Origin: Nonomuraea lactucae
GTDB lineage: Bacteria > Actinomycetota > Actinomycetes > Streptosporangiales > Streptosporangiaceae
NCBI RefSeq assembly: GCF_003313395.1
Contig: NZ_QNFZ01001061.1
Coordinates: 1 to 32,222, forward strand
DNA: 32,222 nt
Reading direction: 5' to 3'
Positions within the stretch are counted from its first letter, which is position 1. Every line of letters begins with the position of its first letter. This document shows positions 1,328 through 32,222 of this stretch, piece after piece. The notes beneath the pieces are model-generated. The model was not told the DNA's origin. It ran no database searches and was given only the letters and a program-made list of their open reading frames with translations. The position numbers and the translations under genes are program-made.

Positions 1328-1348
1328 CGGCCGCCTTCCGCGCCGGGC

Positions 1349-3591: not shown

Positions 3592-4607
3592 GGGCGCAGC
3601 CCGGCGGAGATCTCCCTGGCGGCCATGCGGTCCGACAGCCTGGTGAGGCGCGTGTAGCGGCGCTGGAAGTCGTGCCTGGTCAGCCCGTACAGGCGGTAGG
3701 CGTCGGCCAGCTCGGCCGCGCCCGCCTTGACGCTCCAGCGGGCCTCGTAGCCCGGCAGCGCCTCCCGCAGGCGGGAGAAGTCCACGCGGTAGGAGCGCGG
3801 ATCGTTCCCGGCCTCGCCCGTGATCACCACCGCGGACCCCGGCACGGCCTCGGCCACCTCGGCGGCTATCTCGGCGACCGTCACGTTGTTGCGCTCCGTG
3901 CCCACGTTGAACGCCCTGGCGTGCACGGCCTCGCGCGGCGCGTCGAGGGCCAGCAGGAACGCCTCGGCGATGTCCCTCGCGTGGACCAGCGGCCGCCACG
4001 GCGTGCCGTCGGACAGCACCCGCACCTCGCCGGTCAGGAAGGCGTGGCCGACCAGGTTGTTCAGCACGATGTCGGCCCGCAGCCGGGGCGAGAAGCCGAA
4101 CGCGGTGGCGTTGCGCATGAACACCGGCGTGAAGCTCCCGTCGGCCAGCCCGGCCAGGTCGTCCTCGACCCGCACCTTGGACTCGGCGTACGGGGTCACC
4201 GGCCGCAGCGGCGCGTCCTCGTCCACCAGCTCGTCACCGCCCGAGGCCCCGTACACCGAGCAGGTGGAGGCGTACAGGAACCTGCTCACCCCGGCGTCCC
4301 GGGCCAGGCGGGCCAGCCGTACCGAGGCGCGGTGGTTGATGTCGTAGGTCAGCTCGGGCGCGAGCGAGCCGAGCGGGTCGTTCGACAACGCGGCCAGGTG
4401 CGCCACGGCGTCGAACCCGGCGAGCAGGCCGGGCGGCACGTCCCGCACGTCCACCGCGTGGGCGGGCGGGTCGTTCGGGGCGGGGCCGAGCACGCAGTCG
4501 GCGAACAGGCCCGAGTCGAGGCCGACGACGTCGTGACCGGCTCGCGCCAGCACGGGGGCCATCACGCTGCCCAGGTAGCCCTGGTGTCCGGTCAGAAGTA
4601 TCCGCAC
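3588..4607 (-). CDS. NAD(P)-dependent extended SDR nucleotide-sugar epimerase/dehydratase
   Basis: The product is 339 aa from a GTG at 4607, one base after the deacetylase stop. A Rossmann glycine motif lies at the N-terminus (TGHQGYLGS), with D at the end of beta 2 (GLDSGLF). The catalytic pair is YAESK (Y-x3-K) preceded by the STCSVYG serine segment. This is the extended short-chain dehydrogenase family acting on NDP-sugars, typically as a C4 epimerase, 4,6-dehydratase or reductase. The exact reaction cannot be read from sequence. The gene overlaps the COG4310 gene by 4 bp and follows the PIG-L deacetylase, within a tightly packed sugar-modification operon. Length is normal and no key residue is missing. 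Confidence 0.92.
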   Translation of the reverse strand: MRILLTGHQGYLGSVMAPVLARAGHDVVGLDSGLFADCVLGPAPNDPPAHAVDVRDVPPGLLAGFDAVAHLAALSNDPLGSLAPELTYDINHRASVRLARLARDAGVSRFLYASTCSVYGASGGDELVDEDAPLRPVTPYAESKVRVEDDLAGLADGSFTPVFMRNATAFGFSPRLRADIVLNNLVGHAFLTGEVRVLSDGTPWRPLVHARDIAEAFLLALDAPREAVHARAFNVGTERNNVTVAEIAAEVAEAVPGSAVVITGEAGNDPRSYRVDFSRLREALPGYEARWSVKAGAAELADAYRLYGLTRHDFQRRYTRLTRLSDRMAAREISAGLRP

Positions 4608-4608
4608 G

Positions 4609-5259
4609 TCACTCTCCAGCCAGGTCGAGGGTCAGCTTGCGGGTGTGGAACGCCTCGGCGTAGCGGGCGCCGCACTCGATGCCGCGGATGCGGGCCAGCC
4701 CGAGGAACGCCTCCCGGTCGTACCAGGCGCGGCGCCGCTGCGACGGGTAGTGCCGCTCCAGCAGGCCCGCCTTGGCCTCGGCCATGGCGGGCTCCAGCGG
4801 CTGGTAGACCGAGGGCCGGCCGAGGTCGCCGTCCCACTTGACGATCTCGTAACCGAGCGCGAGGTGGTCGCGGAACACGGTCGGGACCAGCTCGGCCAGG
4901 CCCCGGTGATCCTGGTGCGCGTCGCCCTCCCACGGGGCGAGCACCAGGTCGGGCCGGGTGCGGGCGCGCAGCTCCTCCAGGGCGTCCTTGGCCTCCTCCC
5001 AGTGGGCCGGCAGCCGCCCGTCCGGGATCTTCAGCACGGTGACCGCGAGGTCCGCCCCCGGGCAGAAGGCGGCCAGGGCGGCACGCTCCTCGTCCTCCCG
5101 CTCGGTGCCGCCGCCCGACAGCACGAGCGCGTCCACCCGCACGCCGGGCCGCGCCGCGCAGAGGGTGAGCAGGGTTCCGCCCGCACCGATCGCGATGTCG
5201 TCGCAGTGCGCGCCCAGCGCCACGACACCGTCCAGGACGGCGGGCCGCAGCCCGTTCAT
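4609..5259 (-). CDS. PIG-L family deacetylase
   Basis: The product is 216 aa. The start chosen is the ATG at 5259, which overlaps the TGA of the nucleotidyltransferase (ATGA); an alternative six codons upstream lies inside that gene. The metal-binding motif appears as GAHCDDIAIGAGG (the family's AHPDD with Cys for Pro, a variant I have seen in sugar-operon members), and the second motif is DAHQDHRG. PIG-L/LmbE proteins are zinc-dependent N-deacetylases acting on N-acetylglucosaminyl or similar N-acyl groups. In this context it probably removes an N-acyl group from a nucleotide sugar or glycan intermediate (inference). The protein should be cytoplasmic. A truncated relative is fused to a response regulator at 19703-20407 in this window, but that copy is from a different subfamily. 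Confidence 0.9.
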   Translation of the reverse strand: MNGLRPAVLDGVVALGAHCDDIAIGAGGTLLTLCAARPGVRVDALVLSGGGTEREDEERAALAAFCPGADLAVTVLKIPDGRLPAHWEEAKDALEELRARTRPDLVLAPWEGDAHQDHRGLAELVPTVFRDHLALGYEIVKWDGDLGRPSVYQPLEPAMAEAKAGLLERHYPSQRRRAWYDREAFLGLARIRGIECGARYAEAFHTRKLTLDLAGE

Positions 5260-6032
5260 GATTCCCACAGCGCCCACGGCCGCTCGCCGCGCGCCCAGGA
5301 ACGGTCCAGCTCCAGCCGCTGGTTGACGGTGTCGCTCGGACGCCAGTAGCCGCGGTGCCGGTAGGCCAGCAGCCTGCCGCGCTTGGCCAGCTCGGCGCAG
5401 GCGTCGGCCACCAGGTCGCCGTTCTCCGGGATGTGGTCGAAGACCTCCTGGCGCAGCACGAAGAAGCCGCCGTTGACCCAGAGAGGCAGCCGGCTGACCG
5501 GCGTGATGCCGCCGACCAGGCTGCCCTCGCTGACGTCCACGACGTGGAAGGTGTTGGTGGGCGGCACGACCATCATGGAGGCGCCCGCGTCGGAGGCCGC
5601 GAACCGGTCGATCATCTCGGGCAGCGGCGCGTCGGTCAGCACGTCGGCGTAGTTGGCGAGGAACATCTCGTCGCCGCCGAGGTGATCGCGCACCCTGCGT
5701 AACCGCTCGCCGATCGCCGAGTCGACCCCGGTGTCCACGAGCGAGACCGTCCAGTCGGAGATGTCGGTCGACAGCAGCTCGACCCGGCCCGCGCGCAGCA
5801 CGAAGTCGTTCGACACCGTCTCCCGGTAGGTGAGGAAGAAGTCCTTGATGTGCTGCGCGCCGTACCCGAGGCAGAGGACGAACTCCTTGTGCCCGAAGTG
5901 CGCGTAGTAGCGCATCACATGCCAGACGAGCGGCCGTGGGCCGACGGGCTGCATGGGCTTGGGCAGGTCACCGCCGGGGGCGGAGCTGCGCATCCTGGTG
6001 CCCCGCCCGCCGCAGAACAGCACCACCTTCAC
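5256..6032 (-). CDS. RfbF-like sugar-1-phosphate nucleotidyltransferase (glucose-1-phosphate cytidylyltransferase type)
   Basis: The product is 258 aa from a GTG at 6032 that overlaps the methyltransferase stop by 4 bp (GTGA); this overlap decides the start over a longer frame inside that gene. The N-terminus carries the nucleotide-binding signature FCGGRGTRMR and the PKPM lysine motif, followed by PLVWHVMRYYAHFGHKEFVL and LGYGAQHIKDFFL. That pattern is closer to glucose-1-phosphate cytidylyltransferases (RfbF) than to thymidylyl- or uridylyltransferases. It would activate a sugar phosphate as an NDP-sugar, probably CDP. With RmlA also in the locus, two separately activated sugars are implied. 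The middle contains the family Asp motif (LANYADVLTDA) expected to bind metal. Confidence 0.88.
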   Translation of the reverse strand: MKVVLFCGGRGTRMRSSAPGGDLPKPMQPVGPRPLVWHVMRYYAHFGHKEFVLCLGYGAQHIKDFFLTYRETVSNDFVLRAGRVELLSTDISDWTVSLVDTGVDSAIGERLRRVRDHLGGDEMFLANYADVLTDAPLPEMIDRFAASDAGASMMVVPPTNTFHVVDVSEGSLVGGITPVSRLPLWVNGGFFVLRQEVFDHIPENGDLVADACAELAKRGRLLAYRHRGYWRPSDTVNQRLELDRSWARGERPWALWES

Positions 6033-7240
6033 GACACGACCTCCAGCTCCGGGATCGGGAAGACCAGCCGCCCGCCCCACTCGCGGACGTACGAGAGCTG
6101 CTCGACGAGCTCCTCGCGCAGGTTCCACGGCAGCACCAGCACGTAGTCGGGCCGGTCGGCCGCGATCCGCTCGGGCGGCAGGACCGGGATGCGCGAGCCG
6201 GGCGTGAACCTGCCGTGCTTGTACGGGTTTCGGTCCACCGTGTACGCGAGCAGGTCCGGCCGGACGCCGCAGTGGTTGAGCAGCGTGTTGCCCTTGCCCG
6301 GCGCGCCGTACCCGACGACCGTCCGGCCCTCGGACGCGGCGTCGAGCAGGAACCTCAGCAGGTCACGCCGGACCTTGGCCACCCGGGCGGCGAAGTCCTG
6401 GTAGCCGGACAGGTCGTGCAGCCCGGCGGCCTTCTCCATCGCCAGCACGTCCGCCACCCGGTACGACGGCGTGGCCGACTCCCCGGGCACGGCCCACAGC
6501 CGCAGGGACCCGCCGTGCGTGGGCAGCAGCTCCACGTCCACCAGTGTCAGCCCGCCGCTCGCCAGCGCCCGCCTGGCCGAGGCGACCGTGTAGTACTGGA
6601 AGTGCTCGTGGTAGATCGTGTCCCACTGGTTGAGCTCCATGAGCGTCATCAGGTGCTGCACCTCGATGGAGACCCGCCCGCCGTCGGCCACCAGCGCCCG
6701 CAGGCCACGGGTGAAGCCGGTGATGTCGGGGATGTGCGCGTAGACGTTGTTGGCCACGACCAGGTCGGCGGGCCCGTGCTCGGCGCGCACCTGCTGGCCG
6801 GTCTCCGGCGTCAGGAACGCGCTGAGCGTGGGCACTCCCCGCTCCCTGGCGGCCCTGCCGACGTTGGCCGACGGCTCGATGCCGAGGCAGCGCACGCCCC
6901 GCTCGACCAGGTGCCGCAGCAGGTAGCCGTCGTTGCTGGCCACCTCCACCACGAACGAGCCGGCCCGCAGGTCCAGGTCCTCGACGAACCGCCGCGCGTG
7001 CTCGACCCACGAGGCGGAGTAGGAGGAGAAGTAGGCGTACTCCACGAACGTCTGCTCCGGAGTGATCAGCGGCGGGAGCTGCGCCAGCCAGCACTCGGTG
7101 CAGACCCGCAGGTGCAGCGGGTAGGTCGTCTCGGGCTCGTCGAGCTGCTCCGCGGTGAGGAACGACTCGCACGGCGGGGTCGCGCCGAGGTCCACCACCC
7201 CGGCGAGCCCGGCCGAGCCGCACAGCCGACAGGTCGCCAT
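6029..7240 (-). CDS. SAM-dependent sugar C-methyltransferase with N-terminal zinc motif
   Basis: The product is 403 aa from an ATG at 7240 directly after the TGA of the oxygenase gene. Residues 4, 7, 47 and 50 are the C-x2-C / C-x2-C pair of the N-terminal zinc domain (CRLCGS, VCTEC). The SAM site is FVVEVASNDGYLLRHL near residue 95, and YHEHFQYYT matches the His-Glu-His active-site region of the TylCIII/NovU/TcaB9 family. The C-terminal third (GRTVVGYGAPGKGNTLLNHC) is the second Rossmann-like domain of this family. Family members methylate C3 (or C5) of dTDP-4-keto-deoxysugars, giving branched sugars. The target here is inferred to be the keto-deoxysugar of the locus. Confidence 0.92.
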   Translation of the reverse strand: MATCRLCGSAGLAGVVDLGATPPCESFLTAEQLDEPETTYPLHLRVCTECWLAQLPPLITPEQTFVEYAYFSSYSASWVEHARRFVEDLDLRAGSFVVEVASNDGYLLRHLVERGVRCLGIEPSANVGRAARERGVPTLSAFLTPETGQQVRAEHGPADLVVANNVYAHIPDITGFTRGLRALVADGGRVSIEVQHLMTLMELNQWDTIYHEHFQYYTVASARRALASGGLTLVDVELLPTHGGSLRLWAVPGESATPSYRVADVLAMEKAAGLHDLSGYQDFAARVAKVRRDLLRFLLDAASEGRTVVGYGAPGKGNTLLNHCGVRPDLLAYTVDRNPYKHGRFTPGSRIPVLPPERIAADRPDYVLVLPWNLREELVEQLSYVREWGGRLVFPIPELEVVS

Positions 7241-8137
7241 TCAGCTCACTCCAGCCAGGGCGGCGGCCTCGTACTCCAGCGCCAGATCCTCGGGCATCGG
7301 GGCGAGGTCGGCGCACCGTGCGAAGTCGCGCAGCGTGGTGCCCGTGCAGCGGGCGTCCACGTTCGGCGCTCCCCTGCGCGCCCGCACGTCGTCGAGGTGC
7401 ACCGTGCGGAAGTCGATACTGAACCTGGTCCTGCCGGAGGTGTTGGGGACCGTCGAGTGCAGCTGGGCGCCGGAGAACAGCAGCACCCCGCCCGGCTCGG
7501 GGACCACCCTGATCTGCGGGTCCAGGCGGATCTCCTCCTCCGGCCTGGGCTGCTCGCGGGTGTCGCTGCGCACGTGCCGGGCCGCGCTGTGCCGGCTCGT
7601 ACGGTTCCACTCGGCGTAGTCGTAGGCCGCGCTGCCGTTGCGCACCGGGGTGTCGAAGTAGCCGGGGTGGAAGGCCATCACGTTCTCCGCCACCACGCCG
7701 TAGACCGGCATCCACCAGTTGACCTGGCTGAACGGGGCCGAGTACCAGCAGTCCCGGTGCGGGTGGAAGGCGTAGGAGATGCCAGAGACGAGGTAGTCGT
7801 GGGAGGTGGAGGTGCGCAGCCGGGGCACGTCGAAGTAGGTCCGGCAGGGGTCGCAGCCGCGCTCCGCCATGAGGGCCGGCAGCAGTTCCTTGCACCGGGG
7901 GTGGTGGATGAACCGCGGCTTCAGGTCCGCCAGCAGCGCGGCGAACTCCTCCACGGGCAGCTCGTGCTGCGCCGTCTCGGGGTCGAGGCCGCCGAACGCC
8001 TCCGCGATCAGCTCCCTGGCGAACCCGGCCAGCTCGGCGGACGCGGGCGAGGCGGGGTAGACGAACAGGTCACCCCGGAACAGCGCGTCGCGCCGGGCGT
8101 CGTCGGTCACGCCGCTGTTGGACAGAACGGCCGTCAT
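7241..8137 (-). CDS. Phytanoyl-CoA dioxygenase-like 2OG-Fe(II) oxygenase
   Basis: The product is 298 aa from an ATG at 8137 with AGGGG about nine bases upstream. An ATG three codons earlier has no room for a ribosome site. The facial triad is visible as HPHRDCWYSA (H-x-D) and, distally, GAQLHSTVPNTSGRTRFSIDFR (His, plus Arg for 2-oxoglutarate). This is the PhyH-type cupin fold, which hydroxylates or oxidises unactivated carbons. It is the first gene of the minus-strand operon running to the flippase and abuts the methyltransferase (TGA then ATG). A role as an oxidative tailoring step on the sugar or its lipid carrier is inference. Confidence 0.85.
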   Translation of the reverse strand: MTAVLSNSGVTDDARRDALFRGDLFVYPASPASAELAGFARELIAEAFGGLDPETAQHELPVEEFAALLADLKPRFIHHPRCKELLPALMAERGCDPCRTYFDVPRLRTSTSHDYLVSGISYAFHPHRDCWYSAPFSQVNWWMPVYGVVAENVMAFHPGYFDTPVRNGSAAYDYAEWNRTSRHSAARHVRSDTREQPRPEEEIRLDPQIRVVPEPGGVLLFSGAQLHSTVPNTSGRTRFSIDFRTVHLDDVRARRGAPNVDARCTGTTLRDFARCADLAPMPEDLALEYEAAALAGVS

Positions 8138-8196
8138 ACGAAACATCCCCTTTCACTGGTATAGGTACGGAGTCCGCGGCATGGCATCCTGCGATC
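8138..8196. promoter_or_regulatory. Short divergent promoter region between oxygenase operon and rmlC-like gene
   Basis: Only 59 bp separate the two divergent starts (8137 minus, 8197 plus), so both promoters must overlap here or lie inside the opposite gene. The minus-strand side supplies an AGGGG ribosome site. The plus-strand gene has no clear Shine-Dalgarno sequence, so a leaderless or very short leader transcript is possible. I see no convincing -35/-10 pair. Confidence 0.4.
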
Positions 8197-8775
8197 ATGG
8201 ATCCCCTCCCGATCGAAGGGGCGTGGCTCTCCACGCCGCGCGTCCACAGCGACCCTCGCGGCTCCTTCGCCGAGGCGTTCCGTACCGCCGGCCTGCCACA
8301 CCCCTTGGAGACGGCCCAGGTCAACTGCTCGGTCTCGCAGCCCGGCGTGGTGCGCGGCGTCCACTTCGCGGCCGTGCCGCCCGGCCAGGCCAAGTACGTG
8401 ATGTGCGTCTCGGGCGAAGTCATGGACGTGGTGGTGGACCTGCGGGTGGGCTCGCCCGGGTTCGGTCACTGGACGGCCGTGACGCTCGACGACGAGACGC
8501 GCCGGGCCGTGCTGATCGCCGAGGGTCTCGGCCACGCGTTCATGGCGCTGAGCGAGCGGGCCACCGTGGTCTACCTGTGCTCGCAGCCGTACGCTCCGGG
8601 CCGGGAGCACGGCGTGCACCCGCTGGATCCGGAGCTCGGGATCGCCTGGCCGGAGGGCGTCGAACCGCTGCTGTCGGCGAAGGACGCCGCCGCGCCCGGC
8701 CTGGAGGAGGCGCTCAGGGCAGGGCTGCTGCCCGACTACGAGGAGTGCCGCAAGTTCTACACGACGCTGCACTGA
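8197..8775 (+). CDS. rmlC: dTDP-4-dehydrorhamnose 3,5-epimerase family protein (RmlC-like)
   Basis: The product is 192 aa from an ATG at 8197. It has the RmlC cupin hallmarks: SDPRGSFAEAF, SQPGVVRGVHF (active-site His), KYVMCVSGEVMDVVVDLR, AEGLGHAFMAL, and YAPGREHGVHPLDPELGIAWP. The family epimerises C3 and/or C5 of dTDP-4-keto-6-deoxyglucose; antibiotic-sugar members often epimerise one position only, so double epimerisation is not assured. It is the only plus-strand gene in the sugar locus, and its last 19 bases overlap the 3' end of rmlD on the opposite strand. Context with rmlA, rmlD and a C-methyltransferase fits rhamnose or a branched deoxysugar. Confidence 0.9.
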   Translation: MDPLPIEGAWLSTPRVHSDPRGSFAEAFRTAGLPHPLETAQVNCSVSQPGVVRGVHFAAVPPGQAKYVMCVSGEVMDVVVDLRVGSPGFGHWTAVTLDDETRRAVLIAEGLGHAFMALSERATVVYLCSQPYAPGREHGVHPLDPELGIAWPEGVEPLLSAKDAAAPGLEEALRAGLLPDYEECRKFYTTLH

Positions 8776-9644
8776 GAACCCGCCTCCGTGGCGCCGGCGT
8801 GCCTGGAACCGGGCGCGCCGGCCATGACGGGCCAGGCGGCGCGCAGGCCCTGGCGCCAGCCCCGGATCGGCTCCCACCTGGTGTGGGCGAGCACCCCGCT
8901 CGCCGGTCGCGCGGCGGGCCGGGGACAGGCCGTGCTCGGCACCGGGCGCACCCGCCCGGGATCGGCGCCCAGCAGGGTGAAGACCTCCCGTGCCAGCCCG
9001 CACCAGGTGGTCTCGCCCGAACTGGTGCCGTGGTAGACGCCCGGCGGCAGGTCCGACTGGGCCAGCCGCACCAGGTAGTCGGCGAGGTCGGCGGCCCATG
9101 TCGGCTGGCCGCGCTGGTCGTCCACCACCTCGACGGTCTCCCGCTCGCCGGCCAGCCTGATCATCGTGCGCACGAAGTTGGGGCCGGCCGCGCCGTACAG
9201 CCACGCGGTGCGCACGACGTAGTGCCCATGCACCAGCGCCGCGCGCTCACCGGCGAGCTTCGTCCTGCCGTAGGCGTTGAGCGGCCCCGTCGGCGCGTCC
9301 TCACGGTACGGCTCGCGACCGCGCCCGTCGAAGACGTAGTCGGTGGAGACCTGAAGCAGGCGGGCCCCGGAGCGGGAGCACGCCTCGGCGAGCCAGGCGA
9401 CCGCGTGGCCGTTGACGGCCAGCGCCTCCTCCTCGCGCGTCTCGGCCTCGTCCACCGCGGTCCAGCCCGCGCAGTTGACCACGATCCGCGGCCGGTAGCC
9501 GCCCACGAAGTCGAGCACCGCCCGCCGGTCGGTCACGTCGAGCTCGGCCCTGGCCAGCGCCAGCACCGGCTCGCCGGTCAGCGCGATCCTGTCGAGCACG
9601 TCGGCGGCCAGCATGCCCCCGCCACCGGTGATCAGCCATCTCAT
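8757..9644 (-). CDS. rmlD: dTDP-4-dehydrorhamnose reductase (RmlD)
   Basis: The product is 295 aa from an ATG at 9644, with a GGAAG-like ribosome site upstream. It shows the SDR glycine motif (ITGGGGMLAADVL), the NCAGWTAVDEAE segment, QVSTDYVFDG and the catalytic YGRTKLAGE (Y-x3-K), all typical of RmlD. It reduces the C4 keto group of dTDP-4-keto-rhamnose-type sugars with NAD(P)H. It starts 16 bp after rmlA and is co-directional, so the two are likely cotranscribed. The 3' end overlaps that of the convergent rmlC-like gene. The C-terminal 30 or so residues are low-complexity and probably unstructured. Confidence 0.92.
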   Translation of the reverse strand: MRWLITGGGGMLAADVLDRIALTGEPVLALARAELDVTDRRAVLDFVGGYRPRIVVNCAGWTAVDEAETREEEALAVNGHAVAWLAEACSRSGARLLQVSTDYVFDGRGREPYREDAPTGPLNAYGRTKLAGERAALVHGHYVVRTAWLYGAAGPNFVRTMIRLAGERETVEVVDDQRGQPTWAADLADYLVRLAQSDLPPGVYHGTSSGETTWCGLAREVFTLLGADPGRVRPVPSTACPRPAARPASGVLAHTRWEPIRGWRQGLRAAWPVMAGAPGSRHAGATEAGSQCSVV

Positions 9645-9660
9645 GCGTGTCGCCGCTTCC

Positions 9661-10728
9661 TCACGAACTGATCTGCACCTTGCTGTGATCGCCGAGCACC
9701 AGGCGGTGGGCTCTGGGCGTGCCTGCCGCCGGGGTGACCTCGACGTCGTGGCCGATGAGCGACGACTCGATCCGGCTCACTCCCCGGATGGAGGCCCTGG
9801 GCAGCACGATCGAGTACTCGATCTCGGCGTGCTCGACCACGCAGCCCGCCCCGATGGAGGTGAACGGCCCGACGTAGCCGTCCTGGACGCGGGCGCCCGC
9901 CCCGATGATCGCCGGGCCGACCAAGCGGGAGCGCTCGACCACGGCACCCGGCTCGACCACGACGCGGCCGATCAGCTCGCTGGCCGCGTCCACCGAGCCG
10001 CCGACCCGGGGCTCCAGCGACTCCAGGACGAGGCGGTTCACCTCCAGCATGTCGGTGACGTTGCCCGTGTCCTTCCAGTAGCCGGAGATCACCGACGACT
10101 CCACGCGCAGGCCCGCCTCGATCAACCACTGGATGGCGTCGGTGATCTCCAGCTCGCCCCGCCACGACGGCTTGAGCTCGGCGACCGCCGCGTGGACGGC
10201 CGGGCTGAAGAGGTAGACGCCGACGAGCGCGAGATCGCTCTTGGGCCGGGCGGGCTTCTCCTCCAGGCGGACGACGCGACCTCCCGGGTCGAGTTCGGCC
10301 ACCCCGAACTGGCGCGGGTCGCGGACGCTGGTGAGCATGATCTGCGCGGCGGGCCGCTCGCGGGCGAACCGCTCCACGAGGCCGCCGATGCCGCCGACGA
10401 CGAAGTTGTCGCCGAGGTACATGACGAAGTCGTCGTCGCCCAGGTAGTCGCGGGCGATCAGCACGCCGTGCGCCAGCCCGAGCGGCGCCTCCTGGCGCAG
10501 GTAGGTCACCTCCAGGCCGAACGCCGAGCCGTCGCCGACGGCCGACTCGATCTCGGCCTGCGTGTCGCCGACGACCAGCCCGGCCTCCCGGATCCCGGCC
10601 TCGGCGATGGCCTCCAGACCGTAGAAGAGCACCGGCTTGTTGGCCACCGGGACGAGCTGCTTGGCCGAGGTGTGGGTGATGGGCCGTAACCGGGTGCCCG
10701 CCCCTCCGGCGAGCACGAGCGCTTTCAA
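9661..10728 (-). CDS. rmlA: Glucose-1-phosphate thymidylyltransferase, long form (RmlA/StrD type)
   Basis: The product is 355 aa starting at TTG 10728, one base after the stop of the sugar-phosphate transferase. A GGAGAAGGGG ribosome site lies within the end of that upstream gene, about nine bases before the TTG, which supports this unusual start. The N-terminus has LVLAGGAGTRLRPITHTSAKQL, followed by MYLGDNF and the EKP motif. The long form has a left-handed beta-helix tail (residues ~245-355) as in StrD, rather than the ~290 aa RmlA of E. coli. It makes dTDP-glucose, the entry to the dTDP-deoxysugar pathway; no RmlB dehydratase gene is seen in the window. Confidence 0.93.
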   Translation of the reverse strand: MKALVLAGGAGTRLRPITHTSAKQLVPVANKPVLFYGLEAIAEAGIREAGLVVGDTQAEIESAVGDGSAFGLEVTYLRQEAPLGLAHGVLIARDYLGDDDFVMYLGDNFVVGGIGGLVERFARERPAAQIMLTSVRDPRQFGVAELDPGGRVVRLEEKPARPKSDLALVGVYLFSPAVHAAVAELKPSWRGELEITDAIQWLIEAGLRVESSVISGYWKDTGNVTDMLEVNRLVLESLEPRVGGSVDAASELIGRVVVEPGAVVERSRLVGPAIIGAGARVQDGYVGPFTSIGAGCVVEHAEIEYSIVLPRASIRGVSRIESSLIGHDVEVTPAAGTPRAHRLVLGDHSKVQISS

Positions 10729-10729
10729 G

Positions 10730-12184
10730 CTAGTAAGCCCCTTCTCCGCGGGTGACGACGGACCAGGTCTTCCAGAGGATCTGCAGGTCGAGGATGAGCG
10801 ACCAGTTCTCCACGTAGCGCAGGTCGAGGCGGACAGACTCCTCCCAGGTCAGGTCCGAACGGCCGCTGACCTGCCAGAGCCCGGTCATGCCCGGCTTGAC
10901 GACCAGGCGGCGGCGCACGTCCGTGCCGTACTGGGCGACCTCCTCGGGCAGTGGCGGGCGCGGGCCGACCAGCGACATCTCGCCGCGTACGACGTTGAAG
11001 AGCTGGGGCAGCTCGTCCAGCGAGTAGCGGCGCAGGAGGCCGCCCAGCGGGGTGATCCTTGGATCGTTCCGCATCTTGAACATGACGCCGTCGAACTCGT
11101 TGGCCTCCTGCAGCGCGCCCTTGAGCCGCTCGGCGCCCTCGACCATCGTCCGGAACTTCACCACCCTGAACTCCCGGCCGTGCCTGCCCACCCTGGTCTG
11201 GTAGAACAGCGCGGGCCCGCGGCTGGTGAGGCGGATCAGCAGCACGATCGTCAGCAGCGGCACGGCCATGAGGAGCAGCGCCGCGCCCGCCACGCACCGG
11301 TCGAACACGCTCTTGACGACCTGCTTGGCCCCGTCGAACTCGGGGTGCTCCACGTGCAGCAGCGGCATCCCGGCCACCGGCCTGATGCTGATGCGCGGCC
11401 CGGCCACGTCCATCAGCGCGGGAGCCACGAACAGGTCGGTCCGCTCGCTCTCCAGGCTCCACGCCAGCCTGCGCAGCGCGATCCCGTCCATCTCCGGGCA
11501 GGCGAGCACGGCCACAGCGTCGGCGCGTACCCGCGCCGCCGCGTCCGCCACCTCGCCGAACGACCCGAGCACGGGGATCCCGTCGAGGTCGACGTCCATG
11601 CGGTCGGCGGGCAGGCACGCCCCCACGACCAGCATGCCGTGGTACGGCTGGCCGCGGAACTGCATGACCAGGTCGAGGATCGACTCGCGATGACCCACTG
11701 CGACGACCTGGCGCATGTACTGGCCGACGGCCCTCCTGCGGTGCAGGCGCTTGCGCATCTTGTAGCGGAAGTAAAGCGCGGAAAGCAGCGCCAGCGGCAA
11801 CATCGCCATGACAAAACTGCGCGCCACCGCGGTCTGCGTGGCATACGCGCCAATCGCCACCGTGGCCATCAAACCCGCGCCGCCGTTGAATACCGCCCTG
11901 AACTCCTCGGTGCCCTCGCCATGAGCGCGCTGGCGATACGCGCCGCCCATCGCCAGGGCGAGCGGCCAGGCGACGACGAGGCCGGCGCCGAGAAGGAACT
12001 CGGCCAGCGGGATGAACGCCCCGGAAAGGAGCCGGACGCCGAGCACGAACACGCACGCGGCCAGCGCGCACGCGAGGTCGCCGCTCCACAGGATCCGCAG
12101 GTACGCCCGCGTCCAGATGCTCGACGCACGGCGTGGCACGGCTTCGAGGAGCACGACATCGGACTCCCCCGTCCCCACCCTCAT
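10730..12184 (-). CDS. Polyprenyl-phosphate sugar-1-phosphate transferase (exopolysaccharide initiating enzyme)
   Basis: From the ATG at 12184 the product is 484 aa; a GTG 15 codons upstream is possible but has no better ribosome site. Several hydrophobic segments occupy residues ~30-140, then a central Rossmann-like region, another helix near MAVPLLTIVLLI, and the catalytic bacterial sugar transferase domain. The latter shows GREFRVVKFRTM, DPRITPLGGLLRRYSLDELPQ, LFNVVRGEMSLVGPRPPLPE and KPGMTGLWQVSGRS. The family transfers a sugar-1-phosphate from an NDP-sugar to undecaprenyl phosphate, starting glycan assembly at the inner membrane face. It heads the operon with rmlA and rmlD. Confidence 0.93.
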   Translation of the reverse strand: MRVGTGESDVVLLEAVPRRASSIWTRAYLRILWSGDLACALAACVFVLGVRLLSGAFIPLAEFLLGAGLVVAWPLALAMGGAYRQRAHGEGTEEFRAVFNGGAGLMATVAIGAYATQTAVARSFVMAMLPLALLSALYFRYKMRKRLHRRRAVGQYMRQVVAVGHRESILDLVMQFRGQPYHGMLVVGACLPADRMDVDLDGIPVLGSFGEVADAAARVRADAVAVLACPEMDGIALRRLAWSLESERTDLFVAPALMDVAGPRISIRPVAGMPLLHVEHPEFDGAKQVVKSVFDRCVAGAALLLMAVPLLTIVLLIRLTSRGPALFYQTRVGRHGREFRVVKFRTMVEGAERLKGALQEANEFDGVMFKMRNDPRITPLGGLLRRYSLDELPQLFNVVRGEMSLVGPRPPLPEEVAQYGTDVRRRLVVKPGMTGLWQVSGRSDLTWEESVRLDLRYVENWSLILDLQILWKTWSVVTRGEGAY

Positions 12185-12411
12185 AGCACCACCCAGGCAA
12201 CTCTGTTGGTATGACGTTCCCTGAACCACGCAAGGGCGGCGGCCCCCACTAAAGACTAAAGATCAACTGCATAACGGGGAACAACGTCATATGTCCACAA
12301 TCGGACGCAAAGCGGGGTGTTCGAAGGGTTGACTAACTGCTCAGAAGGTGCTGATCTACCTGACTGTGGCCTTTACCGCGCCATTCCGTAATATTGCCGA
12401 AATCTTGGGCG
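12185..12411 (-). promoter_or_regulatory. Leader/promoter region of the sugar-transferase operon
   Basis: This 227-bp gap is markedly more AT-rich than its surroundings, as expected for a promoter and leader of the 12184 gene. It contains a perfect tandem heptamer CTAAAGA at 12249-12255 and 12256-12262 (plus-strand reading). On the minus strand a possible -35 TTGTTC and a weak -10 TTTAGT with 18-bp spacing can be drawn, but this is only suggestive. No ORF is convincing here. Confidence 0.4.
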
Positions 12412-17702: not shown

Positions 17703-18758
17703 GTGCCGATCTTTCTTGCCCGCGTGCTGTCCAGGCTCGCGCTGCTCGGCACGTGGTGGACCCCGGTGATCGTGTTCAGCCTGGTGTTCGTCACCAGCTG
17801 GCCGTTGATGACGCTCGTCGAGCCGGCGGACAGCGTGATCGTCGAACCCGGCAACTACTGGTGGTACTTCGTGGTCACCGCCTCGACCGTCGGCTACGGC
17901 GACGTGTTCCCGAGGTCGGCCGCCGGCCACGTCGTCGGCGCGTACGTCATCGTGGGCGGCATCGCCACCCTGACGACGGTGTTCACCAGGCTCACGACCA
18001 CGCTGGAACGAGCCAAGGGGCGAAGGATGCGAGGTGCCGTCACCGTGGACATGTCCGGCCACATCGTGCTGCTCGGCTACACGCCGGGACGCACCGAGCA
18101 GATCGTCGACGAGCTGACGGCCGACGGCACGACCGGGGTCGTGGTCTGCGCCTGGGAGGACGTGCGGACGCATCCCATGTCCGACCGCGACGTGACGTTC
18201 GTGCGCGGCGACCTGACGGACGACGGCGTGCTGCGCAGGGCCGGCGTGCACCGGGCGCACAGCGTTCTGGTGGACGCCCGCGACGACAACGAGGCGCTCG
18301 CCGTGGCCATCACCGCCGACCACGTCACCGACGGCGCCCACCTCGTGGTGGCGCTGCGCGACCTGGGCAGGGTCCGCCATCTCCGCTATGTCACCGAGTC
18401 GCTGAGCTGTGTGCAGTGGCACAGCCCGTACATGATCACCGAAGAGCTGAAGGACCCCGGCATCACAGACATCTACACCCAGCTGATGACGCACGGCGGC
18501 GCCGGCACCTACTCGGTCCGGCTGCCGGACTCCCTCGGTCCGGTGCTGGTGGACCACTGCCAGACCTCGCTCGGCCGCCGCTACGGCGCCACCATGCTCG
18601 CCGCCCGCGCCGGCGACACGCTCCTGGTCAACCCCGACTGGACGACCGAACTCCCGAGCGGGGCGGTGCTCTACTACGTCGGCTCGCACCGCCTCACGCC
18701 CGACGAGATCGCCACCGCCCTGCGCGACGTGCCCGGCACCACGCGAACGCCACTCTGA
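17703..18758 (+). CDS. Two-helix potassium channel with RCK (TrkA-N) domain
   Basis: The product is 351 aa from a GTG at 17703 preceded by AGGAGGA three bases upstream; a longer frame extends into the ArsR gene and is rejected. TM1 spans ~18-38, the pore helix and selectivity filter TVGYGD are at residues 62-67, and TM2 follows (HVVGAYVIVGGIATLTTVF). The cytoplasmic part begins with GHIVLLGYTPGRTEQIVDEL, the nucleotide-binding start of an RCK domain, and a RCK-C-like region (YSVRLPDSLGPVL) follows. It should form a tetrameric K+ channel at the membrane gated by a ligand such as a nucleotide or cation. Confidence 0.93.
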   Translation: MPIFLARVLSRLALLGTWWTPVIVFSLVFVTSWPLMTLVEPADSVIVEPGNYWWYFVVTASTVGYGDVFPRSAAGHVVGAYVIVGGIATLTTVFTRLTTTLERAKGRRMRGAVTVDMSGHIVLLGYTPGRTEQIVDELTADGTTGVVVCAWEDVRTHPMSDRDVTFVRGDLTDDGVLRRAGVHRAHSVLVDARDDNEALAVAITADHVTDGAHLVVALRDLGRVRHLRYVTESLSCVQWHSPYMITEELKDPGITDIYTQLMTHGGAGTYSVRLPDSLGPVLVDHCQTSLGRRYGATMLAARAGDTLLVNPDWTTELPSGAVLYYVGSHRLTPDEIATALRDVPGTTRTPL

Positions 18759-18771
18759 CCTCCCGGGTCAG
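18755..18771 (+). terminator. Weak hairpin at the end of the channel gene
   Basis: CTGACC and GGTCAG arms with a five-base loop begin within the stop codon region of the channel gene. The stem is only 6 bp and no T-run follows, so it may be a weak terminator or processing structure, or chance. Confidence 0.3.
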
Positions 18772-18853
18772 GCCCGGAGGCGGCCACCTGCCGTACAGTC
18801 GGGAAAGGCCGGGCCACAGAAGGGCTACGGGAGCGCTACAGGAGGGACCGCCG

Positions 18854-18928
18854 GTGACTCCAGGCTGCGGCAACTGCGACTGCTACCTCGAAGACATCGT
18901 CCTCGTGAAGCCGCCAGGCGAACGCTGA
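18854..18928 (+). CDS. Putative 24-residue cysteine-containing peptide
   Basis: A GTG at 18854 follows a near-perfect AGGAGGG ribosome site (18840-18846) at 7-bp spacing. The product is 24 aa: starts M-T-P-G, then CGNCDC (Cys 5, 8, 10), a hydrophobic stretch LEDIVLV, and a KPPGER tail. The C-x2-C-x-C cluster resembles metal-binding motifs such as in metallothioneins, but three cysteines are too few to call one. It lies 95 bp after the K+ channel gene on the same strand, and its second half is antisense to the end of the decayed kinase. It could be a small functional protein, a leader peptide or noise; the ribosome site is the main support. Confidence 0.4.
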   Translation: MTPGCGNCDCYLEDIVLVKPPGER

Positions 18929-19706
18929 CACGAGACCGGAGGTGGCCCCGGCGGCGGGGCCACCTTCTGGAGGCGCACCTCCACCGTCAGACCGCCGGCG
19001 GGGTCGGCGGTCGCGGAGAGGGTGCCGTGGTGCGCGGTGACGACCGCGTGGACGATCGCGAGGCCCAGCCCGTGCCCGGTGCGCCGCTCGCCGGAGTCGT
19101 GGTGAGTGTCGTGGTGAGTACGGCCCGCCCCGCGCGCGAAGGGCTCGAACAGCATGTCCACGTGATCCGGCGTCACCCGCGGCCCCGTGTTGGCGACCGT
19201 CAGAACGGCCTGCCCGCGCTCCGCTGCGACGGTGACCGCGACCCGGCCGCGTTGGTCGTTGTGCCGGATCGCGTTGGTCACGAGGTTGGCGGCGAGCTGC
19301 GCAGCAGGGTGGGATCGCCGGCGACCAGCGCCGGGTCCAGCCGCGAGACCACGGACACGCCCCGCCGGGCCGCCTCCTTGGAGGTGACCTCGATCGCGTC
19401 GCAAGCGAACCCCACCAGGTCGGCGGTCGTGGTGACGCCCAGGCCGTAGTCGGCCCGGGCGAGGTCGAGCAGAGCGCCGCGATCTGCTCGCTGCGCGCGT
19501 TGACCTCGGTGAGGTCGGCGAGCAGCGCGGGCACGTCGCAGGCCGCGGGATCGGCCGCGGCGACGTCGAGGAGCGCCTGGCTGGTGGCCAGTGGGGTGAG
19601 CAGCTCGTGCGAGGCGCTGGCGGTGAAGCGCCGGTGGCCGTCGAACGCGGACGCGGGCCGGCGACGGAACCGGTCCGCTGCCGGGGTCCACGACCCTCGC
19701 GCTCAT
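18883..19706 (-). pseudogene. Decayed two-component sensor histidine kinase
   Basis: An ATG at 19706 overlaps the regulator stop (ATGA), but the kinase that follows is broken. The H-box (FTASASHELLTPLA, His codon 19607-19609) lies in a different frame from that ATG. The segment LLDLARADYGLGV and its continuation to LVAGDPTLL return to the ATG frame after about 19475. The ATPase domain (NLVTNAIRHND, FEPFARG, GHGLGLAIVHAVV) lies in a third frame from about 19310 to a TAG at 18883. Two of the shifts look like single-base losses. No sensor domain, membrane helices or HAMP precede the H-box. Sequencing error could explain the single-base shifts but not the missing N-terminal half. It was the partner of the upstream response regulator. 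Confidence 0.8.
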
Positions 19707-20407
19707 CCCCTGGCCAGCCGGTAGCCGACGCCGATCTCGGTGTGGATCACTGGCGGATCGCCGAGATTGCGCCGCAGCGCGTGAATGGTGATCCGCACCG
19801 CGTTGGTGAAGGGGTCGGCGTGCTCGTCCCATGCCTTCTCCAGCAGGTGTTCGGCGCTGACCACGCCTCCCTGGGCGGCGAGCAGGATCTCCAGCACCGC
19901 GAACTCCTTACGGGTCAGGCGGATCCCCCTGCCGTCCCGGCTGGCCTCCCTGCTCACCGGATCGAGCCGTACCCCCTCGGCCGCCAGCACCGGCGGGCGC
20001 GCCTGGGAGGGGCGCCGATGCAGCGCCCGCACCCGGGCGACCAGCTCAGGGAGCCGGAACGGCTTGGTGAGGTAATCGTCGGCGCCGAGGCCGAGCCCGG
20101 TGACGGTGTCGTCGAGCGTGCGCGCCGCGGTGAGCATCAGGATCCGGCACGGTGCCCGCTCCGCCACCAGCCTCCGGCACACCTCGTCGCCGTGCACGAC
20201 AGGGAGATCCCGGTCGAGGATCAGGACGTCGTACGCGGTGACCGAGAGCCGTTCCAGCGCCGCGGCCCGCCGGGTCCTCTCCGCCCAGGTGCAGTTCACC
20301 ACTGGCGTCCTGGCGCCCCCGTCGGAGTATCTGGCCAGGGTTCCGCCCGTCCAGATGGCCTCGTCGTCCGGGTGCGCGTGCACGCGCAGCAAGCCGAAGT
20401 CCACCAT
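19703..20407 (-). pseudogene. Chimera: PIG-L deacetylase N-terminus fused to a truncated OmpR-type response regulator
   Basis: One open frame of 234 aa starts at ATG 20407 with a GAGG ribosome site. Residues ~4-45 (LLRVHAHPDDEAIWTGGTLA, then YSDGGARTPVVNCTWAE) are the start of a PIG-L deacetylase, including the HPDDE zinc motif. From about residue 48 it becomes a receiver domain (AALERLSVTAYDVLILDRDL, D65 as phospho-acceptor, later LTAARTLDD and the KPF lysine), then a complete OmpR/PhoB winged helix (RLTRKEFAVLEILLAAQGGV, VRITIHALRRNLGDPPVIHT, GVGYRLARG). The receiver lacks beta 1, alpha 1 and beta 2 with the acidic pair that binds magnesium, and the deacetylase lacks everything after its first motif. 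The open frame could still make a DNA-binding protein. The downstream kinase is broken as well. Confidence 0.8.
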
Positions 20408-20487
20408 GATCCTCTATTCCCTCCGCGCCCCCGCCAACACGGCGAACGGGCATGTCAGCACGGGCTGGATCGTGCCCTGCCAGCGGG

Positions 20488-22053
20488 TCAATCAACGGCC
20501 GGGACCGCCTCCCCGGGGTCCCGGGCGGGAAGCGCGCCGGCGGCCGGGACGTGCCGGAGTCCGACGATCGCGAGGACGGCCAGGCCCAGGAACAGTACGG
20601 TCGCGACGAGCGCGACGACGTTGAGCCCGCTGGTGAAAGCATCGCGGACCGAGTTCAGCAGGTCAGCCCCGGCCTGGCCGGAGACCTGCTGGGCGGCCGG
20701 AACCGCGCTGGCGATGCTCTCGCGGACCGCGCCGGCTGCGTCGGCTGGGACCCCGGCGGGGACGCTCACCTCGGCCCGGTAGACCACGCTACCGATGAGC
20801 CCCAGGATCGCCACCCCGAGCGCCGTACCGAACTCGCCGAGAGTACCGGACAACGATCCGGCCGACCCGGCCTTCTCCGGCGGCGCGGACGACATGATCA
20901 GGGTGGCGCTCAGAATGCCGACCGTGCCACCGCCGACGAAGGCAATAGTGAGGCCGGTCAGCAGGGTCGCCAGGCCGGTGGGGCTGCTCGTCACCTGCGT
21001 GATCACCAGCATGCCGATCGCCGCGAGCACTGCCCCGGCGGCGAGCACGTAGGCGGGGCGGACCTTGCGCGCGGTCGCGGCGGCCAGGTTGCCCACGACG
21101 ATCATTGCGATGGCCGGGGCCAGCATCCACAACGCGACCTGGAACGGCATGAGCCCTTGGACCATCTGCATGAACAGGGTGGCCAACAGGGTGGTCCCAC
21201 CCGAGAAGAGCGGCGCGCACAGCGCGAGCAGCGCCGCGGCGGCCAGCGCGCGACTGCTGAACAGGCTCAGGTCCAGCAGCGGACTGCTCAGCTTCCGTTG
21301 GCGCCGCACGAACACCACCATGAAGACCAGGCCGACGAAGATCGTGGCGATCGGCAGCACGTCCCATCCGGTCCTGGCCGCTTCTTTGAGTCCGTAGATG
21401 ATCGGCAAGATGGTCGCCAGGGACAGCACCACACTGATCACATCCAGTCGGCCCGCGCTCGCGTTACGGGACTCGGGCACCAGGAAAGGGCCCGCGAGCA
21501 GCAACAGCGCCATGATCGGTACGCCCATGAGGAAGATCGAACCCCACCAGAAGGCGCCCAGCAGCAGCCCGCCGACCACCGGGCCGAGCACGATGCCGGC
21601 CATCAGAGACGTTCCCCACACGCCCATGGCGGCCCCCATCTGCCTGGGGTCCCTGAACATGGTGCGGATCAGCGCCAGGACTGACGGGGTCACAGCCGCG
21701 CCGGCGATACCTAGCAGGGCACGGGAACCGAGCAGCATCATGGTGGAGGTCGAGTAAGCGGCCAGCAACGACGCGGTGATGAACGCCGCCGCGCCCAACA
21801 GCAACAACCGGCGCCGGCCGATCAGGTCGCCGAGCATTCCCATCGTGATCAGGAACCCGCTGACCATGAAGCCGTAGATATCCATGATCCACAGCTGCTC
21901 GATGCTGTTGGCCCCGAGGGCCGAGGTCACCTGCGGGAGCGCCAGGAACATCACATTGATGTCCACGGCCGCCAGCATGGTGGGCAGGCACAGTACGGCC
22001 AGGCCGAGCCACTGCCGCGGCCCGGCCTTGGGGGAAACGTCGACTGTAGTCAA
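20488..22053 (-). CDS. DHA2-family (14-helix) MFS drug exporter
   Basis: The product is 521 aa from a TTG at 22053, with AGAGGA about eight bases upstream and no other start nearby. Sequence features are the DHA2 N-terminus (LAVLCLPTMLAAVDINVMFL), motif A (GDLIGRRRLLLLG), motif C-like GTSLMAGIVLGPVVGGLL, and about 14 hydrophobic helices. The EmrB/QacA family exports drugs or other hydrophobic compounds by proton antiport. An extracytoplasmic loop (VPAGVPADAAGAVRESIASA) precedes the last helix, as usual for the group. No dedicated TetR repressor is adjacent. Confidence 0.93.
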   Translation of the reverse strand: MTTVDVSPKAGPRQWLGLAVLCLPTMLAAVDINVMFLALPQVTSALGANSIEQLWIMDIYGFMVSGFLITMGMLGDLIGRRRLLLLGAAAFITASLLAAYSTSTMMLLGSRALLGIAGAAVTPSVLALIRTMFRDPRQMGAAMGVWGTSLMAGIVLGPVVGGLLLGAFWWGSIFLMGVPIMALLLLAGPFLVPESRNASAGRLDVISVVLSLATILPIIYGLKEAARTGWDVLPIATIFVGLVFMVVFVRRQRKLSSPLLDLSLFSSRALAAAALLALCAPLFSGGTTLLATLFMQMVQGLMPFQVALWMLAPAIAMIVVGNLAAATARKVRPAYVLAAGAVLAAIGMLVITQVTSSPTGLATLLTGLTIAFVGGGTVGILSATLIMSSAPPEKAGSAGSLSGTLGEFGTALGVAILGLIGSVVYRAEVSVPAGVPADAAGAVRESIASAVPAAQQVSGQAGADLLNSVRDAFTSGLNVVALVATVLFLGLAVLAIVGLRHVPAAGALPARDPGEAVPAVD

Positions 22054-22305
22054 TCTCTTGGTCCTCTCACTGTGAGGGAGCAGTGGCTGTGCGATACGGC
22101 GCCGCGACTCATCACCGCCAGGGGGCGGCTCGTCTCGTCACATGGGCGTGTACCGGCTGCAGGCGCGGCGCATCCACCGGGCTGGTTGCATTCGTTGGCC
22201 GCCGGCGATGCCAACGATGGGGGTATGCGTGCCGGTGTCGACGTCGGCGGTGGGGGGGCGACGGGTCGGCGGTGCCAGTGCGCGGCAGGGCTCCGACCGA
22301 GGAGT
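22054..22305. other. 252-bp gap upstream of the MFS exporter
   Basis: This is the promoter side of the exporter and the tail of the TIGR03086 gene. Short frames exist on both strands, but none has a ribosome site with family-like sequence. I see no clear terminator or operator. Confidence 0.4.
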
Positions 22306-22888: not shown

Positions 22889-23392
22889 TCATTGCGCCAC
22901 CGTCCGCACCAGCGCGGCGAGCACCTCAGTGAGCCGGTCGTAGCTCTCGGCGATGCCGCTTTCCGCGCCGAAGTTGATCATGGCGTCGCGGATCTGCTTC
23001 GAGGGGTAGCGCATGGTGCTCGTCAGCGTGGTCCTGTTGTCGCGCTCGACCAGGACGATGGTTGTCAGCGATTCCTCGCCCGCTTCCGCATCGCAGTAGT
23101 CGTTGGCCTCGGTGCGGGTCAGACGCTCGGGGGCGGCGATCTCGCGGTGAACGCCGTGCAGATGTATCTCGGTGCCGTCGGGGCGGCACAACACGTAGCG
23201 CCAGGTCCCGCCCACGCGCAGGTCGACATCGCACACCACCAGTTGGTAGCCGTGGGGGCCGAACCAGCGGCGCAGCAGCTCGGGCTTGGTCCACGCGTCG
23301 AAGACGAGGCGGCGTGGCGCGTCGAACACCCGTGTCAGCACGATCTCGCACTCGGTGGGGGCGGTCACCGTCATCGTGCCGCTGTTGTTCAC
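22889..23392 (-). CDS. SRPBCC/AHSA1-domain protein
   Basis: The product is 167 aa from a GTG at 23392, with AGGAGG six bases upstream and a 4-bp overlap with the ArsR stop (GTGA). Family hallmarks are EIVLTRVFDAPRRLVFDAWT, KPELLRRWFGPHGY, VDLRVGGTWRYVL and a C-terminal amphipathic helix. The START-like fold forms a cavity for hydrophobic ligands. AHSA1 proteins coupled to an ArsR regulator are a recurrent pair in bacteria; the ligand is unknown. Confidence 0.9.
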   Translation of the reverse strand: MNNSGTMTVTAPTECEIVLTRVFDAPRRLVFDAWTKPELLRRWFGPHGYQLVVCDVDLRVGGTWRYVLCRPDGTEIHLHGVHREIAAPERLTRTEANDYCDAEAGEESLTTIVLVERDNRTTLTSTMRYPSKQIRDAMINFGAESGIAESYDRLTEVLAALVRTVAQ

Positions 23393-25727: not shown

Positions 25728-25887
25728 GCCAGTACCTGGAGAGCCCACGCGATACGTCGCGCCCGGTCCACCGCCCTGACCTGGGCATTCATGGGCTGGA
25801 CAGATCCGGCGTCCCGGGGGGATTCTACGGAGAGAGGGGTGAGGGCCGGCCGGGCAGGTGACCGGCCGCTGCCGGGCTGGAGGGCCC

Positions 25888-26367
25888 ATGGCCGCCAACG
25901 TGATGGTCGTGGCCGAGCGGGAGTACGAGTACCCGCGGCCGGAGGTGTTCCGGGCCTGGACGGTTCCGGAGGAGATGGCGCAGTGGCGCGGGAGTCCCGG
26001 TTGGCACGTGGAGCCGGACACGGTCACGTCCGACCTGCGGGCGGGCGGCCGTCACCACCACGTCAAGGTCCGTGACAACGACCCCACCGCCCGGGTGACC
26101 ACCGACGCGGTGTTCACCGAGTACTTCGAGCCGGACGTCTTCGTCGCGCGCCAGCGGATCACCGGCGACCCCGGCATCGACCCGGACGTGCCGCTGGAGT
26201 TGCGGGTCGAGTTCACCAAGACGGGGCGCGACCACACCCTCGTGCGCGTGGTCCAGGGGCCCTTCGAGCCGGAGGTCGCCGGCTACCACAGCAAGGGCTG
26301 GGAGCTCGAACTCGACCGCCTGGACGGCTACCTGGCGCGGCGCCGGGCCCATGGGGGTGCCCGATGA
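25888..26367 (+). CDS. SRPBCC/AHSA1-domain protein (second copy in the window)
   Basis: The product is 159 aa from an ATG at 25888 with GGAGGG just upstream; the upstream ATG at 25858 has no ribosome site. It shows EREYEYPRPEVFRAWTVPEE, DLRAGGRHHHVKVR, and a C-terminal amphipathic helix (HSKGWELELDRLDGYLARR) typical of AHSA1 proteins. It overlaps the following transporter by 4 bp (ATGA), so the two are coupled. It is not closely similar to the copy at 22889-23392. A ligand-binding role connected to the transported sugar is speculative. Confidence 0.85.
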   Translation: MAANVMVVAEREYEYPRPEVFRAWTVPEEMAQWRGSPGWHVEPDTVTSDLRAGGRHHHVKVRDNDPTARVTTDAVFTEYFEPDVFVARQRITGDPGIDPDVPLELRVEFTKTGRDHTLVRVVQGPFEPEVAGYHSKGWELELDRLDGYLARRRAHGGAR

Positions 26368-28928: not shown

Positions 28929-29269
28929 GATGTGGTCCGTTCTGGCCGGGAATTGGCGAACGACCACCAAGCAATCACCGCCCGCGGGGACAGACAATGG
29001 CTGGCATTGTCACCGCCTCGACAGGGTTACCTGTCCCCCACCCTGACCTGCGGAGGCCATTTCCGGCCCGCGGCACTAATGGCGGCGCCCGGCGGCCGAA
29101 AACTCGTGCGCTCGGGCGCGGGCGACCCGGGTGTCGCCGGAGCCGGTGCACCCGGGCGCTGACCGGAACCGGACAGGTATCGCGGTCCATGCATCGACTA
29201 TGGCCGGATTAATGATGTATGAATGCGTTCATCCATCTTCTGCTGTCCCCATCAGAAAGTGAGGCGGGA
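28929..29269. promoter_or_regulatory. Divergent promoter region of the nitrilase-like gene and the NRPS
   Basis: This 341-bp stretch without a gene contains two perfect dyads near the nitrilase side: GACAATG-gctgg-CATTGTC at 28993-29011 and GACAGG-gtta-CCTGTC at 29020-29035. A third, GC-rich one (GGCGAC-ccgggt-GTCGCC) lies near 29120-29140. Nearer the NRPS the sequence becomes AT-rich (around 29195-29225), as expected for its promoter. No reliable -35/-10 pair is assigned. Confidence 0.55.

Positions 29270-32222
<2,953 letters not shown>

Follow-up and report, generated by a model that had tools for sequence, protein, structure and literature searches.

A PIG-L deacetylase head fused in frame to a truncated OmpR-family response regulator beside a broken kinase gene in Nonomuraea lactucae

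PIG-L deacetylases begin with a strand–helix–strand unit in which an acidic HPDDE motif follows the first strand, and atypical response regulators (RRs) that act independently of phosphorylation keep the whole receiver fold. Among the OmpR/PhoB RRs, the solved structure nearest to the protein described here is that of Streptomyces coelicolor VanR (7lza, 7lz9), the aligned parts being 63% identical. Designed proteins that combine CheY or NarL with HisF fragments are known from laboratory work (PMC8250049). Among the entries listed in our literature search, none described a PIG-L/RR chimera such as the one reported here, which is encoded in a 32,222-nucleotide stretch of N. lactucae DNA (hereafter, the window).

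Composition of the chimeric reading frame

The open reading frame (ORF) at window positions 19703–20407 on the minus strand has an ATG start and 234 codons. Pfam domain matches and a codon-by-codon comparison confirmed the in-frame PIG-L/RR chimera proposed in the initial annotation. From its N-terminus, the chimera includes (i) a PIG-L deacetylase head with the HPDDE motif (codons 1–48; 20264–20407, minus strand), in which residues 8–51 match positions 2–45 of the 129 in Pfam profile PF02585 (29.3 bits against a cut-off of 28.2); (ii) a receiver piece (20027–20263, minus strand), with residues 45–127 matching positions 29–111 of the 111 in the Response_reg profile (PF00072); and (iii) an OmpR-type winged-helix DNA-binding domain (19715–19930, minus strand), with residues 160–231 matching positions 2–77 of the 77 in the Trans_reg_C profile (PF00486). 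The C-terminal winged helix of an OmpR/PhoB RR is thus whole and, as initially described, the frame stays open through it. The receiver and the PIG-L catalytic domain are both partial, and no deacetylase enzyme is expected because so little of the PIG-L profile is present. The ORF joins two unrelated genes, and the fusion is private within the sequences searched (see below).

The switch between the two parents falls at residues 48–50 (window positions ~20268–20258): codons up to 48 are PIG-L-like, and codons from 50 onwards are RR-like. The join coincides with a 6-base tract, GGGCCG (20263–20268, minus strand), which the codon-by-codon comparison found to be common to the PIG-L and RR genes of a related genome, G006. 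The initial annotation placed the join after about 45 PIG-L residues, near the motif AAxLERLS; the chimera itself stands, but the "LER" similarity lies 3′ of the switch. The receiver was also thought to begin at its third strand. It begins earlier, since the RR piece aligns with residues 34–217 of the G006 RR; RR residues 1–33 are unmatched, and the acidic "EDE" has gone with them. Retained in the receiver piece are D65 (the Asp of "LILD") and K115, both in invariant columns, and T93, in a nearly invariant one; we take D65 to be the phospho-acceptor Asp, and T93 and K115 to be the conserved receiver Thr and Lys.

Under a simple independent-base model, at least 6 shared bases occurred at the join in 0.4% of trials, and microhomology at the join, judged with the G006 genes in place of the real parents, is therefore plausible. 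Any join has a one-in-three chance of being in frame, and the chimeric ORF owes its length to the RR frame that survives. By appearance, the start codon and the purine-rich stretch upstream of it are usable.

Intact parents and distribution of the fusion

Separate full-length genes, for which the initial annotation had suggested looking, were found in relatives. G006 encodes a 219-residue RR (start set by homology) followed by a 373-residue kinase, and the RR and kinase of a second genome, G069, are 97% and 90% identical to these, respectively; over residues 48–230, the chimera is 86% identical to the G069 RR. Relative to these two intact pairs, the window locus is disrupted in the manner of a pseudogene. 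Among the 54 other congeneric genomes searched, 24 have a PIG-L head with 70%–83% identity to that of the chimera. G006 has a PIG-L gene as well, at 2.04 Mb on a single 9.57-Mb contig that carries the RR gene at 7.85 Mb, 5.8 Mb away.

The fusion was found in one genome. In a comparison of 161 sequences (E 1e-3), with flanks mostly of 1.5–5 kb, PIG-L and RR occurred together only in the window and in five loci cut from it. A 75-residue query spanning the join had matches in 32 of the 298 genomes of the order (E 1e-12) and was matched right through in the source genome only; the other matches covered either the PIG-L side (to residue 44–46) or the RR side (from residue 38–41). RR matches were present in all 60 genomes of one search. 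Besides the window's own, one of the matches listed extends well ahead of the join (residue 24 onwards, in G025), as do those of 3 of the 80 loci in a second set (L028, L083, and L105); these four loci gave no PIG-L match and encode ordinary RRs whose own N-terminus is present (starting at residue 1 or 8). A scan of viral contigs for PIG-L yielded no confirmed relative. An old fused family, which the initial annotation had named as an alternative to recent fusion, was rejected, the architecture not having been found elsewhere in the 298 genomes or the 161 sequences.

A second PIG-L sequence of the source genome bears on the origin of the head. Contig C737 carries, at ~2730–3075, a PIG-L wreck (locus L158) with stops and a native-like upstream region. 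Its order is a PIG-L-like upstream sequence, a 27-base stretch resembling codons ~40–49 (23 of 27 bases; E 1e-4 with a very small search space), and, directly thereafter, codons ~169–255 with stops. The 3′ piece is 71% identical to the protein of another relative, G032, and was the sole other piece of the genome found above 64% identity. A move of the head out of the native locus was considered and set aside: the wreck lacks codons 1–39 and looks complementary to the head, yet codons ~40–49 seem to be present in both places and in differing versions, which makes two copies more likely than a move. These short matches suggest that the window head is probably a second copy. In the wreck, the internal deletion has its break close to codon ~49, where the chimera also switches, and within the GGCGGGCCG stretch common to both; the two breaks at one place may reflect chance or a fragile site.

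The initial annotation invoked a microhomology deletion. The shared GGGCCG tract is consistent with microhomology, but simple deletion between adjacent genes is not favoured, given the distance between the genes in G006, the separate wreck on C737, and the occurrence of the pair together only in the window among the 161 sequences compared. An unseen intermediate with neighbouring PIG-L and RR copies is possible.

The chimera had also been placed under the deacetylase promoter, a proposal that is now less well supported. For the 93 bases that precede the chimera, the best score against the PIG-L upstream regions of 21 relatives was 17 (95% point of shuffled sequences, 24), a weak comparison in that, among the 18 pairs of relatives listed, 8 likewise reach no more than 24. 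The upstream region of the C737 remnant scored 50 against those of the relatives (shuffle maximum, 31), and a score of 103 was reached by the pair G032–G006, two relatives with PIG-L heads that rank among the nearest to the window's.

The kinase remnant and its surroundings

The remnant of the cognate histidine kinase gene lies at 18958–19666 on the minus strand and aligns with the G006 gene in three pieces. The boundary between RR and kinase comprises ~420 bases in G006 and ~50 in the window, so the N-terminal ~137 residues of the kinase have been lost; two further single-base frame breaks lie near 19479 and 19300. The locus therefore lacks the intact partner kinase of a two-component system, and the working regulator proposed in the initial annotation becomes less well supported. 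The remnant also contains a perfect 12-base tandem duplication (GTCGTGGTGAGT twice, 19096–19119), and G006 lacks the 12 bases at this place.

On the other side, the gene of a major facilitator superfamily (MFS) efflux-type transporter (20488–22053, minus strand) is whole by Pfam (MFS_1, positions 5–346 of 347); all 25 NCBIfam matches listed for its protein fall below their cut-offs. Its stop lies 80 bases upstream of the chimera start on the same strand. A scan of 18700–22200, of a kind that suits actinobacteria poorly, found no sigma-70-type site, and the simplest guess is that the chimera would be transcribed from the MFS gene upstream.

Of 30 other window ORFs taken as a Pfam control, 22 have a family match, which extends over 90% or more of the best profile in 17 and over part of it in 5; the ORFs had been chosen for open frames, which biases the set toward whole genes. 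The damage therefore looks local to the chimera/kinase region. A mobile element was considered and set aside: no clear flanking repeat was found, and no transposase occurs among the Pfam matches of the window ORFs. Positions 1–12229 hold a minus-strand sugar or polysaccharide cluster, with flippase-like, epimerase, C-methyltransferase, RmlD-like, nucleotidyl transferase, and sugar transferase families and a DUF4910 protein (2329–3999). Inside this cluster is a whole, distant PIG-L-family gene (4609–5277, minus strand) in which AHCDD replaces AHPDD; it was rejected as donor of the head on account of this distance (over 117 residues, it is 30% identical to the G032 gene). Elsewhere in the window are two AHSA1-type proteins on opposite strands ~2.5 kb apart (22889–23392, minus; 25843–26367, plus) and a nonribosomal peptide synthetase module with condensation and adenylation domains (29219–32221, plus strand), the frame of which is open past the contig end.

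Interpretation and comparison with known systems

We consider it probable that the chimera is a decay relic in a broken two-component operon rather than a new regulator, because the partner kinase is broken too. According to this reading, an operon of an OmpR-family RR and its kinase would have undergone decay in the source genome. Illegitimate rearrangement at the short GC tract common to both parents would have replaced the first 33 codons of the RR gene with a PIG-L head, probably from a second copy, and the kinase would have been destroyed separately by a deletion and small frame breaks. The open frame would persist because the join happened, by chance, in frame. If made, the product would have no cognate kinase; its DNA-binding domain would be whole but preceded by a receiver that is missing the acidic pocket and the first strands. 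As the initial annotation put it, such a product is likely phosphorylation-blind, and it is expected to have no selected function. We infer the rearrangement mechanism and the lack of folding and of function. As a relic, the locus would be a snapshot of the death of a two-component operon, in which an in-frame join makes a decayed gene resemble a new protein in annotation.

It is unlikely, although it is the better of the two main alternatives, that the chimera is a domesticated orphan regulator, kept after the death of the kinase as a phosphorylation-independent DNA-binding protein and perhaps co-transcribed with the MFS gene, which is on the same strand 80 bases away. In its favour, the winged helix is complete, and the chimera and the intact G006 RR each deviate at 1 of 47 strongly conserved RR columns. 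The dN/dS ratios between the chimera locus and G006 were 0.28 for the RR part and 0.44 for the kinase pieces; those of the PIG-L head were 0.14 against G032 and 0.17 against G006. When amino-acid changes were polarised with outgroups at columns where G006 and G069 agree, which dropped 15 kinase and 5 RR columns, the RR part had 10 changes on the source-genome side and 14 on the other, and the kinase had 30 and 17 (p 0.08; 2 more unpolarised); the two differ with a Fisher p of 0.08. Before G069 was added, the counts were 36 and 19 for the kinase (p 0.03) and 13 and 15 for the RR part (Fisher p 0.11), an initial RR-part count having been 14 and 13; a kinase count of 51 and 16 was anchored on G006 and is biased. 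The in-frame count for the winged helix was 4 and 8. The RR part is thus not accelerated, whereas the kinase tends to be. A very recent event and continued use of the RR part would both be compatible with this pattern, and counts of such low power do not separate recent decay, beginning with the kinase, from such use. Against retention stand the occurrence of the fusion in one genome only, so that constraint after the fusion cannot be shown, the incomplete receiver core, and the head, which is not confidently folded (see below).

An assembly or mixed-culture artefact, which would have made the join or the damage, is less likely still. The source is an 8.67-Mb draft in 1068 contigs with 3.37% estimated contamination, sequencing errors might account for the single-base frame breaks of the kinase, and one genome has two seemingly overlapping PIG-L pieces. 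However, the window, which is one contig, is free of N, the ~6 shared bases at the join are little for an overlap misjoin, the boundary has shrunk from ~420 bases to ~50, and most other tested window genes look whole. Thus, decay ranks first in likelihood, a kept DNA-binding protein second, and an artefact third.

The fold of the head was predicted with AlphaFold, which is weak evidence on a recombinant protein. With homologues aligned from residue ~48 on, pLDDT was 87–91 in most ten-residue blocks of the winged helix, ~75–83 in the receiver piece, and below 50 in residues 1–49, where the short strands drawn at 4–7 and 36–38 also fall below 50. MAFFT alignment with full-length RRs sets HPDDE against the acidic EDE, with neither hhalign similarity nor a confident fold: on this alignment, which is biased in favour of the head completing the receiver, residues 10–33 remained below 50, and no strand appeared before residue 61. 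A comparison of PIG-L heads with RR N-termini by hhalign found no profile similarity (probability 0.5%). Structural replacement of the receiver start by the PIG-L head is thus unsupported by the two runs and the profile comparison, and a natural segment swap, in which the PIG-L strand–helix–strand with HPDDE would stand in for the lost receiver strand–helix–strand with EDE, is highly improbable; if true, a receiver-like domain keeping D65, T93, and K115 would drive the winged helix without the old kinase.

The chimera resembles VanR in the later receiver portion and in the winged helix, and differs in that its first ~33 receiver residues are replaced and its kinase is broken. It is not called VanR because it scores 235 bits with the NCBIfam VanR-O model, far below the cut-off of 505. 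With the PIG-L/LmbE/MshB-type deacetylases it shares the HPDDE head, as far as profile position 45 of 129. Like the atypical phosphorylation-independent RRs (2hqr, by its title, and RitR, 5u8k), the chimera would presumably act without a kinase; in contrast to these, its receiver is truncated, and any function would be hypothetical. The CheY/NarL–HisF chimeras, in the portion of the article drawn on here, differ in being designed, whereas prediction does not support folding of the natural chimera; they are alike in that alpha/beta fragments of different folds are joined (PMC8250049). A product that folded and functioned would provide a natural parallel to such laboratory fragment-recombination experiments.
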